A stretch of 64,000 bases of DNA, from contig NZ_JAAAMK010000002.1 of the NCBI RefSeq assembly GCF_024105665.1, positions 372,001-436,000 on the forward strand. The letters are read 5' to 3'. A program made the position numbers and the translations under genes. Position 1 is the stretch's first letter. Each line of letters begins with the position of its first letter. The notes beneath the pieces are model-generated. The model was not told the DNA's origin. It made no database searches and saw only the letters and a program-made list of their open reading frames with translations. Shown piece after piece: positions 41,612 through 48,029 of the stretch. This DNA is from Aliihoeflea aestuarii. Lineage in GTDB: Bacteria; Pseudomonadota; Alphaproteobacteria; Rhizobiales; Rhizobiaceae.

Positions 41612-44600
41612 ATGGCGACCAAACCGGCGACCAACACGGAACTCGACACCGATATCGAAAAGGAGCTGGAAGACGCCCTCGATATCGAACTCGTCATGGA
41701 CGAGGACGACGTGCAGGATGCAGACGAGCCGAGCCTCGATATCGCCGCCTCCATGGAGGACTTCGAAGCGCAGATTTCGCAGGCAGCCGAGGAACTCGCC
41801 TTCGAAAACCGCGATTCCGCGACCGTCGAATCCGTCGATATCGCCGCCGCCCCTCTGGCAGCGGCAGCCGTCGCACCCGCCCTCGCCAAACCGGCCGATG
41901 AAGGCCCGACACGCATTGCCGACCTGAAGCCGGTCGAGGCGCAGGCCCCTGCCCGGCCTTCCGCATTCGCCGCCGCCAATGACGATACCCAGAAGGACTA
42001 CAAGAGCTTCGTCCAGAGCATATCGAAGCCCGTTCCGACCACCATTTATTGGGCGGTCGCGCTTTTGTCTGTTGCGTGGGCGGCCGGCGGCCTTCTCATG
42101 GGCCACCTCCTGTTTTCGCCGCAAATCTGGCAGATCGGCTCGCTCGCCGAACTGATCGCGGCGCCCTACGCGGTCGGGCTGATTCTCGCCGTCCTCGTGC
42201 CTGTCATCCTGTTCTGGGGCTTCGCGGTGATGATCCGCCGTGCGCAGGAAATGCGCTACGCGGCCCAGTCGATGACTGAGGTTGCCTTCCGCCTCGCAGA
42301 GCCGGAGCACATCGCCACCGACCGCGTGATGATGGTCGGCCAGGCCGTGCGCCGCGAGGTGCAGTCGATGGGCGAAGGCATCGAGCGGACACTCGCACGC
42401 GCCGTCGAACTGGAAACGCTGGTCCACACCGAGGTCAATGAACTCGAGCGCGCCTATTCCGAGAACGAGACGCGCATCCGTTCGCTGGTTGACGGCCTCG
42501 GCAGCGAGCGCGAGGCGGTCGTCAGCCACGCCGAGCGCGTGCGCGCCTCGATTGCCGGTGCGCATGAAACGCTAAAGGACGAATTGTCCGCCGCAAGCGA
42601 CGTGATCCGCCAGAACATCGTCGACGTGTCCGGCCAGCTTTCCGGCACGATCGCCGACAGCGGCACATCGTTGATCGAGCGCATGAACGAGAACGGCGCG
42701 CTGTTGAGCGAAGCGCTGGACACGCGCATCGATACGATATCCGAGCGCATTTCCACCTCCGGCGATGGCGTCGCCAACCTGCTCGACACGCGCATCGCCT
42801 CGCTGACGGAAGCCACCGACACAGCCTCCCGCGCGCTCAACCAGATGCTGGACGACCGCACCAGCGGCATGATCTCGCTGCTCGGCAGCGCGTCGCGTTC
42901 GCTGTCCGACGAATTCGACACGCGCCTTCGCGATATCGAGCGCACGCTGGCCGAACGCGGTCAGTCGCTCCTGTCCGAATTCGAGACCCGCGCCCACGCG
43001 CTCGACAGCGGCACGCAAAAGCTCAACGCCGCCCTCGAGGCGCGCGCCAAGCAGATCAACGACACGCTCATCGACCGCACCAGGGAAATCGCGGCGACCT
43101 TCACGGAAGGCAAGAGCCAGCTCAACGTCCTTCTCGATGAGACCAAGGGCAAGATCGGCGCCGACTTCGCAGACCTCGTCATGTCGACATCGACGATGCT
43201 GGAAGCTCGCGCGAGCGACTTCGCCGGCAAGATCGGCGAAGGCCGTGGCCTGATCAGCGCTGCGCTCGACGAAGACCTCGAGCGTTTGGCCGAGACGCGC
43301 CAGGCTATGGACAATGCGATCACCAGCCATGTCGAGCGTATGGCCGAAGGCCGCTCGCTACTGACCGGAGCGCTCAACGACGACATCGCACTGATCGACA
43401 GCACGCGCCGTGGATTGGACGAAGCCGTTTCGCAGCATGTCCAGACCATCGCGGAGCGTCAGTCGGATCTGACCTCGGTTCTCGCGTCGGGCACGGCACG
43501 CGTCGAGGATGCCTTCGCCGGTCAGCTCGACCGCATGGCCGAGCGTCAGAACGAACTGTCGGCTGCGATGTCCGCCGACGCCGACAAGATCGACGAAGCC
43601 ATTTTGCGCGGCATCGAAACGCTGGGCTCGCGTCGGGGCGAGTTGCAGGCGGCGATAAGCGCCGACCTGTCGCGCATCGACGACGCATTCGATCGTCAGA
43701 TCGAGCGTCTGTCCGAGCGCCAGTCGGGCCTCGCCGCTGCCGTCGATGCCGATATGGAGCGTTTTTCCGGCGCATTCGACCGCCAGTTCGACGCGCTCAC
43801 CACGCGTCAGGGTGAGCTTGGCGCGCGCATCGATACGGACGTGGCGCGGATCGACGAGGCGTTCGCCCGCCACGTCGACGCGCTGTCGGTTCGCCAGAAC
43901 GAGATGGAGAATGCCGTGCACCGCGGCGCCGAGCGTTTTGCCGAACTCTTCGGCCAGCTTGCGGGCCAGATCGGCGACCGTCAGTCCGAACTGTCTACGG
44001 CTATCGCCGGCGATGCCCGCCAGATCGAGGAGATCTTTGCCGGTCACCTCGCGACGCTGGCAGCACGCCAGGATGAGCTATCCTCGGCGATTGGCGCCGA
44101 TATGGGCCGCATCGACGAGACCTTTGCCCGCCAGATCGAGCTGTTTGCCGAAAAGCAGACCGACCTCGCCTCCGCGATCAACATTGACATGGACAAGGTC
44201 GAGGAAGCCTTCGCCCGCCACATCGAAGCGCTGGGCGAGCGCCGCGCATTGATCACCGATGCCGTCGGCGCCGATATCGGCCGCATTGGCGAGGCGTTCG
44301 ACCGCCAGTCCGGCGTGATCGAAGAGCGTACCCATACAATGGAGCGCGCCCTCAAGGCAGGCGTGGAGAATGTCCGCGCCGCGCTCGAAGGCAGCGCCGT
44401 CGTGGTCGCCGGATCGCTGCGCGACAAGGTCCTCCAAGCGACCGCCGCGATGGGCGAGCAGGCCGGTCAGGCATTCGTCGATGTCGACAAACGCATCGCC
44501 GAACGCATGGAACAGACGGCGGCGGCCCTTGGCGCGAAGGCCGAGGAAATCGCCGGACAGCTCGAAAGCACGGATCGCCAGTTGGCCGAGCGGATCGAAG

Positions 44601-47098
44601 ATCGCGCGACGCTGATGACGAACCGCGCGGAAGACGTGGCCTCCCGCTTCGAGAACGCCGGGCGTTCGCTCGCGGATGGCTTCGAGGAGCGTACGCAGTC
44701 GCTGTTCTCGCGTGCGGCGGAAATGGTCGAGCGCTTCGCGGAAGCTGACGAGACGCTTGCAAGCCGTGCCGAAGAACGTGCCGTCTCTCTTGCCGGCAAG
44801 TCCGGCGAGGTGGTCGCTGCCTTCGAGGCGGCCGAACGCAACCTGACCATTCGCGTTGAAGATGCGGCAGGCGCGTTGTCGACACGCGCCGGCGAATTCG
44901 CCCAGATCGTCGAGGAGGCCGACCGCAATCTCGCCGGCAAGGCGGACGAAATCCGCGTCAGCCTCCTGTCGCGCGCCGACGAAGTCGTCTCGCGCTTCGA
45001 CGAGGCCGGCAATGCGCTGGTCGTACGCACCGAAGACGCCGCCAGCGCTCTTTCCAGCCGCGCCGACGAACTTCGCGGCGTGTTCGCCGATGCCGATCGC
45101 CAGATCGTATCGCGCCTTGACGAAACAGCGACCGTTCTCGCTGCACGGTCGAGCGATATCGCATCGGTTCTCGACGGTTCGAACGAAAGGCTGCAGGAGC
45201 GTGCGAACGAACTCGCCCGCACCTTCGACACAGCCGAACAGCGCATCATGGCGCGCACGCACCAGACTTCAGCCGAACTCGACGCCCGTGCGGCCGCGAT
45301 TGCCGAAGCGCTCGGCGCGGCCGAAGGCAAGCTTGCCGACCGCACGACTTTGTTCGCCTCGCGCATCGAAAACCAGATCGTATCGGCCGAAGAACGCCTG
45401 ACGAACGGCGCGGCGAATATCGGTGGCCGTCTTCAGGAGCAGGTCGCGCGCGTCGAAACCGAACTGGTGGAACGGGCGAACGCGATTGCCGAAACCTTTG
45501 CGGCCATGAACCGCCACCTCGACGAAAGCACCGAAGGCGCGTCCGACAAGCTCGACGAAAAGACGCGTCAGCTTAACGCCATGCTTTCGGCGCGCTCGTC
45601 GGAAATTTCGCGCATTCTGGACGAAACGGCACGACCCCTGGTCGATCGTTTCGCAGAGAGCGGCAGCGAATTGCAGCGCAATCTCGAGGATATCACGCAG
45701 GCCGCGACCGAGCGCCTGCAATCGGGCAACACGGCCCTGATGTCGGCACTCGAAGCACGGACCAGCGAGACCGTTTCGGCTGTCGAACGCGTCCAGATCG
45801 ACCTTGCTCGCGGCGTCGACGGCCTCATCGGTCGCCTGTCCAGCTCCAACGCGAAGCTGGCCGAACTGGTGGAAACCGCGTCGGCCAATCTCGGCGGCGT
45901 CGACGAGAAACTCGCCGGCACCACCGAGCAGTTCGCCGAGACGACCGAAAAGGCCGCACGCTCCTTCGCCTCGTCGGCCCGCATCATCGAGGCCCATGCT
46001 GGCAAGCTGTCCGAACTGTCTTCGTCCACGCTGCACGAGGTTGCAGGCATCGCATCGCGTTTCGAGGATCACGGAAAGATGCTCGCCGGCGCGCGTGACC
46101 TTCTGAACTCCGCGCAGGAAACGCTGGCGACGACCCTCGACGATCGTCAGACGGCGCTCGAGACGCTCGCATCGGGCCTTTTGAAGAAGTCGGAAGAGAT
46201 CGGGCGCGTCATGCGCTCGTTCGAAAACGTCGTCGGCAAAGCGTTGGAAGGTGCGGAAGGACGCACGAAGACCTCGACGGAGCAGATCCGCTCGGCGATC
46301 ACCGAGGTGGTCGAAAGCGCGACCAAGCGCTTCGCCGACGCGACGGACGAAATCCGCAAGACTGCGGGCTCCATCCGCTCCGAACTTGACCAGACGCGCG
46401 CCGAACTGAAAAAGGGTGTGATGCAACTGCCGGACGAGACGAAGGAATCGACCAGCGCGATGCGCAAGGCCGTTTCCGAGCAGATCAAGGCCCTGAAGGA
46501 ACTGTCGGACATCGTCGCCAAGTCCGGCCGCACCTTCGATGTGGCGCCGGCCCGTGCCGAGCGTCAGCCCCAGCCCGCGCGCCGCCCGGTGGCTCCCGTC
46601 GCATCCGCACCGCCGGCCCCGGCTCTGCGCGGTTCGCTTGCGGAGGTTGCGCCGCAGCCTGCCTCGGGAAGCTGGGTCGGCGCGCTCCTGCGGGGTGCTT
46701 CGAAGGAAGACGCGCCCGCTCAGGCCCCCTCGCAGCCGCAGCGTTCGCCGCTTCATCTGGTCGAATCGCTGAACTCGCTGTCGGTCGACATCGCCCGCGC
46801 GATCGACCACGACGCCTCGATCGAGTTGTGGGACCGTTACCGCAAGGGCGAGCGCAACGTCTTCACGCGCCGGCTCTACACGCTGAAGGGCCAGCAGACG
46901 TTCGACGACATTCGCCGCAAATACCAGAACGAAGGCGAATTCCGCAGCGCTGTCGACCGCTATTGCCAGGACTTCGAGAAGCTCCTTGCCGACGTCGCCA
47001 AGAACGACCGCGACAACATGATGTCGCAGACCTATCTGACCTCCGATACGGGCAAGGTCTACACGATGCTCGCTCATGCGAGCGGCCGCTTGAAGTAA
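41612..47098 (+). CDS. Growth pole ring (GPR/RgsE)-like giant coiled-coil membrane protein
   Basis: A protein of 1,828 residues. An acidic, Ala-rich cytoplasmic N-terminus (about 1-140) is followed by two membrane helices (about 143-166 and 182-208). A very long helical rod (about 220-1640) is rich in Glu, Arg, Ala and Ser and contains two blocks of 29-residue repeats. Next comes a Pro-rich linker (about 1645-1720), then a conserved C-terminal globular part (LHLVESLNSLSVDIARAID...LWDRYRKGERNVFTRRLYTLKG). Size, layout and apolipoprotein-like rod match GPR of Agrobacterium (about 2,100 residues), essential for polar growth, and RgsE of Sinorhizobium. It has its own intrinsic terminator at 47120. 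Homology is inferred from architecture. Confidence 0.82.
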   Translation: MATKPATNTELDTDIEKELEDALDIELVMDEDDVQDADEPSLDIAASMEDFEAQISQAAEELAFENRDSATVESVDIAAAPLAAAAVAPALAKPADEGPTRIADLKPVEAQAPARPSAFAAANDDTQKDYKSFVQSISKPVPTTIYWAVALLSVAWAAGGLLMGHLLFSPQIWQIGSLAELIAAPYAVGLILAVLVPVILFWGFAVMIRRAQEMRYAAQSMTEVAFRLAEPEHIATDRVMMVGQAVRREVQSMGEGIERTLARAVELETLVHTEVNELERAYSENETRIRSLVDGLGSEREAVVSHAERVRASIAGAHETLKDELSAASDVIRQNIVDVSGQLSGTIADSGTSLIERMNENGALLSEALDTRIDTISERISTSGDGVANLLDTRIASLTEATDTASRALNQMLDDRTSGMISLLGSASRSLSDEFDTRLRDIERTLAERGQSLLSEFETRAHALDSGTQKLNAALEARAKQINDTLIDRTREIAATFTEGKSQLNVLLDETKGKIGADFADLVMSTSTMLEARASDFAGKIGEGRGLISAALDEDLERLAETRQAMDNAITSHVERMAEGRSLLTGALNDDIALIDSTRRGLDEAVSQHVQTIAERQSDLTSVLASGTARVEDAFAGQLDRMAERQNELSAAMSADADKIDEAILRGIETLGSRRGELQAAISADLSRIDDAFDRQIERLSERQSGLAAAVDADMERFSGAFDRQFDALTTRQGELGARIDTDVARIDEAFARHVDALSVRQNEMENAVHRGAERFAELFGQLAGQIGDRQSELSTAIAGDARQIEEIFAGHLATLAARQDELSSAIGADMGRIDETFARQIELFAEKQTDLASAINIDMDKVEEAFARHIEALGERRALITDAVGADIGRIGEAFDRQSGVIEERTHTMERALKAGVENVRAALEGSAVVVAGSLRDKVLQATAAMGEQAGQAFVDVDKRIAERMEQTAAALGAKAEEIAGQLESTDRQLAERIEDRATLMTNRAEDVASRFENAGRSLADGFEERTQSLFSRAAEMVERFAEADETLASRAEERAVSLAGKSGEVVAAFEAAERNLTIRVEDAAGALSTRAGEFAQIVEEADRNLAGKADEIRVSLLSRADEVVSRFDEAGNALVVRTEDAASALSSRADELRGVFADADRQIVSRLDETATVLAARSSDIASVLDGSNERLQERANELARTFDTAEQRIMARTHQTSAELDARAAAIAEALGAAEGKLADRTTLFASRIENQIVSAEERLTNGAANIGGRLQEQVARVETELVERANAIAETFAAMNRHLDESTEGASDKLDEKTRQLNAMLSARSSEISRILDETARPLVDRFAESGSELQRNLEDITQAATERLQSGNTALMSALEARTSETVSAVERVQIDLARGVDGLIGRLSSSNAKLAELVETASANLGGVDEKLAGTTEQFAETTEKAARSFASSARIIEAHAGKLSELSSSTLHEVAGIASRFEDHGKMLAGARDLLNSAQETLATTLDDRQTALETLASGLLKKSEEIGRVMRSFENVVGKALEGAEGRTKTSTEQIRSAITEVVESATKRFADATDEIRKTAGSIRSELDQTRAELKKGVMQLPDETKESTSAMRKAVSEQIKALKELSDIVAKSGRTFDVAPARAERQPQPARRPVAPVASAPPAPALRGSLAEVAPQPASGSWVGALLRGASKEDAPAQAPSQPQRSPLHLVESLNSLSVDIARAIDHDASIELWDRYRKGERNVFTRRLYTLKGQQTFDDIRRKYQNEGEFRSAVDRYCQDFEKLLADVAKNDRDNMMSQTYLTSDTGKVYTMLAHASGRLK
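43457..44326 (+). repeat. Ten tandem 87-bp (29-residue) repeats, block 1 of the GPR-like protein
   Basis: Residues 616-905 consist of ten consecutive 29-residue units without gaps, each starting RQ/RR/KQ plus x-x-L and following the pattern RQxELxxAIxADxxRIDEAF then ARQIExLxE. The period was counted directly in the translation. It equals 7+11+11, expected for a right-handed or mixed coiled coil rather than a plain heptad rod. The DNA units are diverged, so the repeat is old and held by selection. Confidence 0.9.
44537..45373 (+). repeat. Second 29-residue repeat block of the GPR-like protein
   Basis: Residues 976-1254 hold nine 29-residue units (for example those starting RAEDV, RAAEM, KSGEV, RAGEF, RADEV, RADEL) plus one shortened unit of 18 residues (starting RSSDIASVL). 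The short unit lacks exactly 11 residues, one hendecad. The sequence pattern, RAxEVxxxFExADxxLxxR, differs from block 1 although the period is the same. Confidence 0.88.
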
Positions 47099-47119
47099 CA
47101 GGGTCAGCCGTCCGGATCG

Positions 47120-47152
47120 GGCCGCGATTGCGCAAGCGATCGCGGCCTTTTT
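47120..47152 (+). terminator. Intrinsic terminator of the GPR-like gene
   Basis: GGCCGCGAT (47120-47128) pairs with ATCGCGGCC (47139-47147) and is followed at once by five T (47148-47152). It starts 21 bases after the stop codon. This is the clearest rho-independent terminator in the window and separates the giant gene from mazG. Confidence 0.9.
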
Positions 47153-47213
47153 CGTTGGCGAGCAAGCGCCGGGGCTTGTATCAAGAGCCTGAAATCGCAA
47201 TGCAGGACATAAG

Positions 47214-48029
47214 ATGCAGCCCTCCCGCGACATATCCCGCCTCCTGGAAATCATGGCAGCGCTTCGCGATCCGCAGACCGGCTGTCCGTGGGACGTCGAA
47301 CAGGATTTCGCGTCCATCGCCCCCTACACGATCGAGGAAGCCTACGAGGTTTCCGACGCGATCGAGCGCGGCGACCTCACCGATCTGCGCGACGAGCTCG
47401 GCGACCTGCTGCTTCAGGTGGTCTTTCATGCGCGCATGGCGGAAGAACGAAAAGCGTTCGCTTTCGCCGACGTGGTCGAGGCGATCACGACGAAAATGAT
47501 CCGCCGTCATCCGCATGTCTTCGGGCCTGAAGAGGCGCGCGGCGCCAAAATGGCGAAAGGCATGTGGGAGACGATCAAGGCCGAGGAACGCGCGGAAAAG
47601 AAGGCCGAGCGCGAAGCGCGCGGCATCATGACGGCAGAGCATGGCTATCTGGACGACGTGCCGGTCGGCCATGCCGCGCTGACGCGGGCGCTGAAATTGC
47701 AGGAGCGCGCCGCGCGCGTCGGCTTCGACTGGAAGGAGCCCGGCCCGATCCTCGACAAGATTTCCGAAGAGGTGGACGAATTGCGCGCCGCGCTCGACGC
47801 CGGCGAAACGGCCGCGATCAAGGATGAATTCGGTGACGTGCTCTTCGCGCTCGTCAATCTCGGCCGGCATCTGGGCATCGACGCCGAGGCGGCCTTGCGC
47901 GGGACGAACGACAAGTTCCGCCAGCGCTTCCACCACGTCGAAAAAGCCGTCACCGAGATCGGCTCGAGCCTCGAAGACGCGACGCTGGACCAGATGGAAA
48001 CGCATTGGCAAGCGGCAAAGCGTCTTTGA
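47214..48029 (+). CDS. mazG: Nucleoside triphosphate pyrophosphohydrolase MazG
   Basis: A protein of 271 residues with two MazG domains. The first has CPWDVEQDFASIAPYTIEEAYEVSDAIE and LRDELGDLLLQVVFHARMAEE, with the metal-binding E-x-x-E...E-x-x-D pattern. The second has ISEEVDELRAALDAGETAAIKDEFGDVLFALVNLGRHL. It hydrolyses (d)NTPs to monophosphates and clears damaged nucleotides. A charged linker (KAEERAEKKAEREARG) joins the domains. A 50-bp hairpin repeat overlaps its stop codon. Confidence 0.95.
   Translation: MQPSRDISRLLEIMAALRDPQTGCPWDVEQDFASIAPYTIEEAYEVSDAIERGDLTDLRDELGDLLLQVVFHARMAEERKAFAFADVVEAITTKMIRRHPHVFGPEEARGAKMAKGMWETIKAEERAEKKAEREARGIMTAEHGYLDDVPVGHAALTRALKLQERAARVGFDWKEPGPILDKISEEVDELRAALDAGETAAIKDEFGDVLFALVNLGRHLGIDAEAALRGTNDKFRQRFHHVEKAVTEIGSSLEDATLDQMETHWQAAKRL

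Follow-up and report, generated by a model that had tools for sequence, protein, structure and literature searches.

The locus and the layout of the protein

The window, that is, the whole stretch of 64,000 nucleotides of Aliihoeflea aestuarii DNA that was analysed, carries on its plus strand an open frame for a protein of 1,828 residues. The flanking genes are housekeeping genes, with folP and folK on one side and mazG, hflX, a D-amino-acid transaminase gene, and trkA on the other. When the 4.1-Mb genome of the organism was searched with the protein, the sole match was the product of 41612-47098 itself. The features are the following.

41612-47098, plus strand: GPR/RgsE-like polar scaffold gene, 1,828 aa (open frame; coordinates include the stop)
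41612-42037, plus strand: N-terminal acidic, low-complexity region, residues 1-142 (from the translation)
42038-42232, plus strand: two hydrophobic membrane-type segments, residues 143-207 (from the translation, boundaries by eye)
42278-46495, plus strand: rod with one amphipathic helix stripe, residues 223-1628 (1,406 residues, 3 prolines)
43241-43456, plus strand: two 36-residue units (29+7) that precede block 1, residues 544-615 (544-579 and 580-615)
43457-44326, plus strand: block 1, ten 29-residue units, residues 616-905
44327-44536, plus strand: inter-block stretch, residues 906-975
44537-45373, plus strand: block 2, nine 29-residue units and one 18-mer, residues 976-1254
45146-45199, plus strand: 18-residue unit (29 less 11), residues 1179-1196
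46496-46750, plus strand: end of the helical region and proline/alanine-rich linker, residues 1629-1713 (from the translation; rod end by the proline rule)
46751-47095, plus strand: conserved C-terminal domain, residues 1714-1828 (alignment and structure model)

The preliminary description had called this protein GPR-like, and the identity is borne out by the membrane segments, the long rod, and the conserved C-terminal domain, as in scaffolds of the GPR/RgsE type. By a hydropathy rule, the first membrane segment lies at the same spot in homologue L032. In an alignment with 35 homologues, the C-terminal domain was 50-93% identical to that of the Aliihoeflea aestuarii protein, and the top named relative kept, Aliihoeflea sp. 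(Phyllobacteriaceae, Hyphomicrobiales), reached 94% identity over this domain. The structure model of the domain is made entirely of helices, with a mean pLDDT of 86. Foldseek matched it to no known fold at E<=0.001, so that the model lends no support to any role of the domain, and the best VIA-align Z of 5.5 is too low to count for a helical bundle. Antisense to the rod, the minus strand carries long open frames (42572-47317), the longest with 682 aa (45269-47317), and in four homologues (L050, L055, L059, and L066) the longest frame in the locus was the antisense one.

Repeat blocks and the register of the rod

The ten gap-free 29-residue units of block 1, counted earlier in the translation, were recovered with a mean pairwise identity of 0.346, compared with at most 0.114 in 2,000 residue shuffles. 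When unit lengths from 20 to 44 were compared over block 1, 29 scored 0.346 and the runner-up, 36, scored 0.114. The count for block 2 was also as claimed, with seven 29-mers, the 18-mer, and two further 29-mers, and the mean identity among its nine 29-mers was 0.300 (shuffle maximum 0.145). The proposal that the 18-mer is a 29-mer minus one 11 was supported. Along the entire rod, the identity autocorrelation had its top lag at 29 (z 14.6) and the next at 58 (z 11.4). The two 36-mers, which the preliminary description did not include, end in the motif of block 1, while no significant single period was detected in residues 906-975 (peak power 7.5 vs a shuffle maximum of 9.2). The two blocks had further been said to use different sequence patterns with the same period. 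This is correct for identity, which across the blocks averages 0.093 over rotations with a best value of 0.169. As listed, the positions that are always bulky (5, 9, 16, and 27) coincide between the blocks, but no single rotation stands out as the best, the hydrophobicity correlation being 0.55 at rotation 11, 0.49 at 22, and 0.47 at 0. Tandem Repeats Finder, which misses copies less than about 70% alike, reported no 87-base array between 42200 and 46500, and the 29-mer units have thus diverged at the DNA level.

A register fit in which core steps were restricted to 3 or 4 reads 3,4,4 / 3,4,4 / 3,4 (11+11+7) in nine of the ten units of block 1, the unit at 761-789 being the sole deviant, in line with the earlier decomposition of 29 into 7+11+11. 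For the whole rod the score was 533.6, against a maximum of 280.0 over 200 shuffles, and the fit comprised 98 hendecads and 45 heptads, with 77% of all I, L, V, M, and F on the 27.6% of residues called core. Register fit, spectrum, and units together show the 29-residue blocks to be a local amplification of the 11+11+7 order. A reading of 29 as 28+1, with a skip residue, gives the same 29/8 arithmetically and was rejected, lag 28 reaching z>=4 in none of the 149 rods described below.

The hydrophobic spectrum peaks at 3.622 residues per turn in block 1 and at 3.620 in block 2, compared with 3.625 for 29/8, and the power at the heptad value of 3.5 is only 1.0 and 0.3, respectively. The period is 3.646 in residues 223-543, 3.654 in residues 1255-1628, and 3.636 over the whole rod. 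Since a straight helix is given as about 3.63 residues per turn, with hendecads only slightly right-handed (PMC4786415), these block values sustain the predicted mixed heptad/hendecad, nearly straight rod. Relative to 3.63, a period of 25/7 corresponds to a left-handed supercoil and one of 11/3 to a right-handed supercoil, while 29/8 leaves next to no supercoiling; if 3.62 is taken as the reference instead of 3.63, the sign for 29/8 is reversed.

In the window protein, I, L, V, M, and F make up 0.72-0.85 of the residues within about 30 degrees of the stripe centre and 0.13-0.15 at 80 degrees, a sharpness that is partly built in, as these hydrophobic residues also served to define the centre (with the scored one left out). 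Basic residues are mostly on one flank of the stripe and acidic ones on the far side. Judged by its sequence, such a narrow hydrophobic stripe looks like the face of a coiled coil. In hendecads, one core residue is described as facing the axis, where it wants a small side chain or more helices (PMC9858780). Among the homologous rods, alanine at the stripe centre amounts to 5-6% in the 29-type and 11n groups and to 16% in the group with a mean period below 3.61, and prolines number 0.18-0.30 per 100 rod residues across these three groups. Because bulky residues, not alanine, face the centre, the rod is probably an assembly of more than two helices. A structure model of the rod, computed as a monomer only, was of low confidence (pLDDT 57.7, pTM 0.19, two breaks) and carries no weight here. 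No PDB entry matched the rod sequence at E<=0.001.

Periods and indels in homologous rods

Rods were collected from homologues recognised through the C-terminal domain. A homologue of this domain was found in 60 of the 61 genomes sampled from the window's family (its own included), in 190 of 199 genomes sampled from the order, where it mostly ends a very long open frame, and in 105 of 289 genomes of the class sample. The class-level homologues have a common plan of a membrane pair, a low-proline rod, and a homologous C-terminal domain. The family set was taken from 57 of the 59 other matching genomes (G008 and G049 stop at a contig edge; G056 gave no match), and L052 was kept in it though it has no 5' end. 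The class set, with one or two genomes per family, was taken from 53 of the 104 other matching genomes; 52 were analysed, L192 being dropped for a rod under 250 residues, and L169-L171 belong to the window's order. The order set consists of 39 loci. It leaves out families f160, f162, f163, f175, f180, f181, f183, f191, and f197 as well as the short f182 and f205 matches, and the most divergent members of the order are therefore missing from it. In the named set, 80 loci with no Agrobacterium and no Sinorhizobium among them, 5 were dropped for low score and L098, ended by a contig edge, was too short for analysis. At the class level, G159 and G291 each had two C-terminal domain matches at different places in long open frames. 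The closely related C-terminal domains of L246 and L247 (genus code g319) go with rods of 1,554 and 537 residues; L247 may be a split or broken gene, since its rod is short and the hydropathy rule found no membrane segment in it.

The strongest period varies by lineage among the 149 homologous rods. Within the window's family (58 rods), z>=4 was reached at lag 29 in 47 rods and at lag 22 in 55. The strongest lag there was a multiple of 11 in 35 rods and 29 or 58 in 15, the strongest period being mostly 22, 29, 33, or 36. Lag 29 reached z>=4 in 11 of the 42 rods from the rest of the order, whose strongest lag was a multiple of 11 in 39 and 29 or 58 in none. Outside the order it did so in 8 of 49 rods; here lag 25 reached z>=4 in 36 and either 25 or 50 was strongest in 37, which makes a 25-residue period (7+7+11) the main one in other Alphaproteobacteria. 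Over lags 8-59, of which sums 7a+11b cover 54%, such sums account for 701 of the 710 combinations of rod and lag with z>=4, the other nine being at lags 8, 15, and 37. The wider rule is a grammar of 7 and 11, and the 29-residue repeat is one local version of it: 29 is common near the window and recurs in a few distant rods, but elsewhere its place is taken by other sums of 7 and 11.

The mean hydrophobic period was at least 3.61 in 98 of 100 order rods and below 3.61 in 46 of 49 other rods. Mapped onto a poorly resolved, midpoint-rooted tree of the C-terminal domain (149 rows, 118 columns), this two-state twist label required 5 changes, compared with an average of 40.9 and a minimum of 33 in 100 shuffles. 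The unit type (25, 11-multiples, or 29-like) was more labile, with 24 changes on the same tree. Rod length and mean period were weakly correlated in the 97 family and order rods, uncorrected for relatedness (Spearman 0.35, p 0.0005).

Indels were scored between close homologues. The set held 225 proteins, 217 of them distinct with rods of at least 250 residues, and yielded 139 nearest-neighbour pairs, of which 138, with at least 50% identity, were used. These 138 alignments contained 187 rod indels with clean flanks. All 123 of those with 8-59 residues had a length of the form 7a+11b, for which 54% of lengths qualify, and in 122 of the 123 the length was a multiple of 3.636 rounded to the nearest integer (a class that takes in 27% of the lengths from 8 to 59). 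Outside the rod, 7a+11b fitted only 6 of 18 indels, 6 of 14 in N-terminal regions and none of 4 in C-terminal ends. These results apply chiefly to the window's family, as 122 of the 123 fitting indels came from pairs within the family or its named near relatives, many of them Mesorhizobium, and one from two members of the order. Since nearest-neighbour pairs share relatives, each protein was also used only once, and the median fit was then 36 of 40 among rod indels shorter than 60 residues (lowest fraction 0.83). With two other gap penalties, 122 of 122 and 111 of 111 rod indels fitted. The in-register lengths were not caused by the aligner, since among 139 simulated deletions that were recovered, 72 were out of register and 67 of these 72 were reported as such. 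The flank filter did not cause them either: when it was varied over 130 pairs and the strict rod, the fit was 294 of 314 (no filter), 215 of 218 (0.3), 121 of 121 (0.5), and 66 of 66 (0.7).

Ten small rod indels broke the rule, eight of 1 residue, one of 2, and one of 4. All eight 1-residue indels lie 116-134 residues ahead of the linker (L037, L038, L046, L049, L088, L092, and L141), and this clustering suggests that the strict rod ends there. Outside the order a single rod indel fell in the range of 8-59 residues; its length of 8 does not fit 7a+11b. The three same-order genomes in the class set gave four fitting rod indels, all of 11. In the class-level indel set, from which L287 was dropped and in which L305 was not included, length changes were few, with 10 rod indels in 29 pairs (three same-order) vs 187 in the 138 pairs above, at unmatched levels of identity. 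Rods of the 25 type thus offered too few indels to be used.

A probable polar scaffold, rival readings, and known systems

Under the earlier proposal, the ring protein has a structural quantum fixed at 29 residues per 8 turns, and this quantum would set the ring geometry. Both blocks of the window protein are on 29 and lag 29 is significant in most rods of the family, as such a quantum would have it. The strongest periods contradict it: 29 or 58 leads in no more than 15 of the 58 rods of the family and in none of the 42 from elsewhere in the order, with 11-multiples in 39 of those 42 and 25 or 50 in 37 of 49 outside it. The lack of a 29-residue period in other genera had been the preliminary description's own ground for refutation, and lag 29 is significant in just 11 of those 42 rods and 8 of those 49. 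As a family-wide rule the quantum is refuted by the periods of the 149 rods, and we consider it very improbable. More room is left for the view that in-register indel lengths result from recombinational gain or loss of whole repeat units, without selection on the stripe phase. The commonest rod indels, of 29 (35 cases) and 36 (27 cases), equal local units. However, the 17 indels of 11 and the 6 of 18 are shorter than the local units, and Tandem Repeats Finder detected no DNA-level tandem array in the window between 42200 and 46500. Both objections are indirect, as rods rich in hendecads could recombine at 11 too. Recombination without selection appears rather unlikely to us, although recombination and selection on the stripe phase can act together.

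The published papers on GPR read the rod as apolipoprotein-like amphipathic helices that bind lipid at the growth pole, and GPR is described there through its likeness to apolipoprotein A-IV and Pfam PF01442, with arguments from homology and from SWISS-MODEL (PMC8262873). The window protein indeed matches PF01442 (E 9e-25, 8 stretches), and L228, a homologue from the same order, scores 125.8 bits, above the cut-off of 90. Amphipathic helices with an 11/3 period are typical of lipid-surface proteins, which also favours this reading. The window protein itself, however, scores 87.9 bits, under the gathering score of 90, which no protein of its own genome passes; PF01442 also matches the antisense frame of the gene at 20 bits and gives sub-cut-off matches in 7 of the 14 control genomes. 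In a shuffle test made on the window protein, a native 400-aa piece of the rod scored 39.7 bits, whereas three shuffles that kept only the position relative to the stripe, and were slightly longer (418-436 aa), scored 53.5, 45.5, and 60.6, and neither of two fully shuffled pieces (413 and 415 residues) matched PF01442. Because the phase-keeping shuffles outscore the native piece, the match reports an amphipathic period near 11/3 and not descent. Apolipoprotein descent was rejected on the sub-cut-off score, the antisense and control matches, and these shuffles. The hydrophobic face is also narrow, basic residues are mainly on one flank, and prolines are nearly absent. Lipid binding by convergence may be compatible with these tests, but as an account of the rod we find the apolipoprotein reading improbable. 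Among other family matches, ZorA of the Zorya defence system was rejected as well, its score being 35.5 bits vs an NCBIfam cut-off of 190, with the best stretch at 1255-1516 in the rod; L228 reached 68 bits against the same cut-off, and a search for papers on ZorA tails brought up nothing of relevance.

We regard it as probable that the protein is a polar-growth scaffold of the GPR/RgsE kind whose rods pack via the stripe, under a constraint on phase, and act as struts. The two N-terminal membrane segments anchor the scaffold, as read from its sequence. The helical rod, about 210 nm if fully extended, presents a single narrow hydrophobic stripe built from 7- and 11-residue modules, through which rods may come together as a coiled coil that is nearly straight and probably has more than two helices. 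The constrained quantity would be the phase of the stripe and not the number 29, with selection as the presumed cause. Rod length would change in steps of 7a+11b, the indel lengths seen in the window's family, so that it can evolve while the packing face is kept in line. The conserved helical C-terminal domain may be the end that docks or localises the protein; published C-terminal deletions are described as blocking complementation in Agrobacterium. Finally, the rods could serve as stiff struts at the membrane, keeping growth-pole partners in place and at a distance from one another.

The growth pole ring reportedly measures 200 nm. Purely as arithmetic, if an Agrobacterium rod has 1,700 helical residues of 0.15 nm, six such rods add up to 1,530 nm; the circumference of a ring of 200 nm is about 2.4 times smaller, and one may speculate that overlapping strands run around it. 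GPR-type proteins act as organisers of polar growth in a large order, and the rod has so far been interpreted as apolipoprotein. A 7/11 coiled-coil rod of quantised length offers instead a testable physical picture of stiff struts with definable twist and length, and through the indel result the constraint on stripe phase becomes measurable in the window's family.

By its named relatives, the window's order is Hyphomicrobiales, formerly Rhizobiales, described as growing unipolarly. A tentative extension of the scaffold reading, to which we give somewhat less than an even chance, is that the twist of the scaffold changed at or near the base of this order, and that within the order the stripe phase is selected and rod length evolves freely but in quantised steps. 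The twist would be about 25/7 (3.57, left-handed, pitch about 33 nm) in other Alphaproteobacteria and 11/3 to 29/8 (3.63-3.66, straight to right-handed) in the window's order, where an extended rod length of about 66-360 nm could tune the geometry of the pole. The lineage difference in twist provides a natural experiment for relating the handedness of the rod to growth mode.

Among known systems, GPR (Atu1348, Agrobacterium tumefaciens; 2,115 aa) and RgsE (SMc00190, Sinorhizobium meliloti; 2,089 aa) are of a similar size class by their published description, and like the window protein they are described as membrane-anchored, cytoplasmic, with a long helical region and apolipoprotein Pfam matches (PMC8262873, PMC7327166). 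They differ in that these papers describe apolipoprotein domains and 21-residue coiled coils (PMC8262873, PMC7327166). RgsE is termed "repeat-containing", with details absent from the available part of the text (PMC7327166), and the words "repeat", "periodic", "heptad", and "hendecad" have zero occurrences in the main text of PMC8262873. Neither "heptad" nor "hendecad" occurs in the three papers, among the 25 of 701 matches listed, in which the growth pole ring protein is named. Among the papers listed by a literature search, judged by titles, abstract starts, and term counts, none links GPR or RgsE to hendecads or to a 29-residue period. TipN of Caulobacter crescentus (882 aa) has been called similar to GPR (PMC8546619) and analogous to it (PMC13170164). 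The class-wide C-terminal domain, with its plan of membrane pair and rod, is compatible with such a likeness; most class-level rods have 25-residue periods.

Scy and FilP of Streptomyces are likewise cell-division or polar rods rich in hendecads (PMC9858780), as is the rod of the window protein. Theirs, however, are described with a DivIVA-like N-terminal domain and alanine-rich dimer cores (PMC9858780), whereas the window protein gave no DivIVA match among its 6 Pfam families at E<=1 (a scan that may discard weak matches), and its stripe centre holds little alanine. Striated fibre assemblin (SFA) forms a segmented coiled coil with a 29-residue repeat (PMC6070942), the same number as in the window protein; it is eukaryotic, with a rod of about 240 residues, and the SFA family was absent from the Pfam scan of the window protein. 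A parallel for quantised length is found in the coiled coils of bacterial chemoreceptors, which are described with 12 to 32 paired heptads (PMC6628036). Those are heptads in a four-helix coiled coil, whereas the rod of the window protein mixes 7s and 11s.
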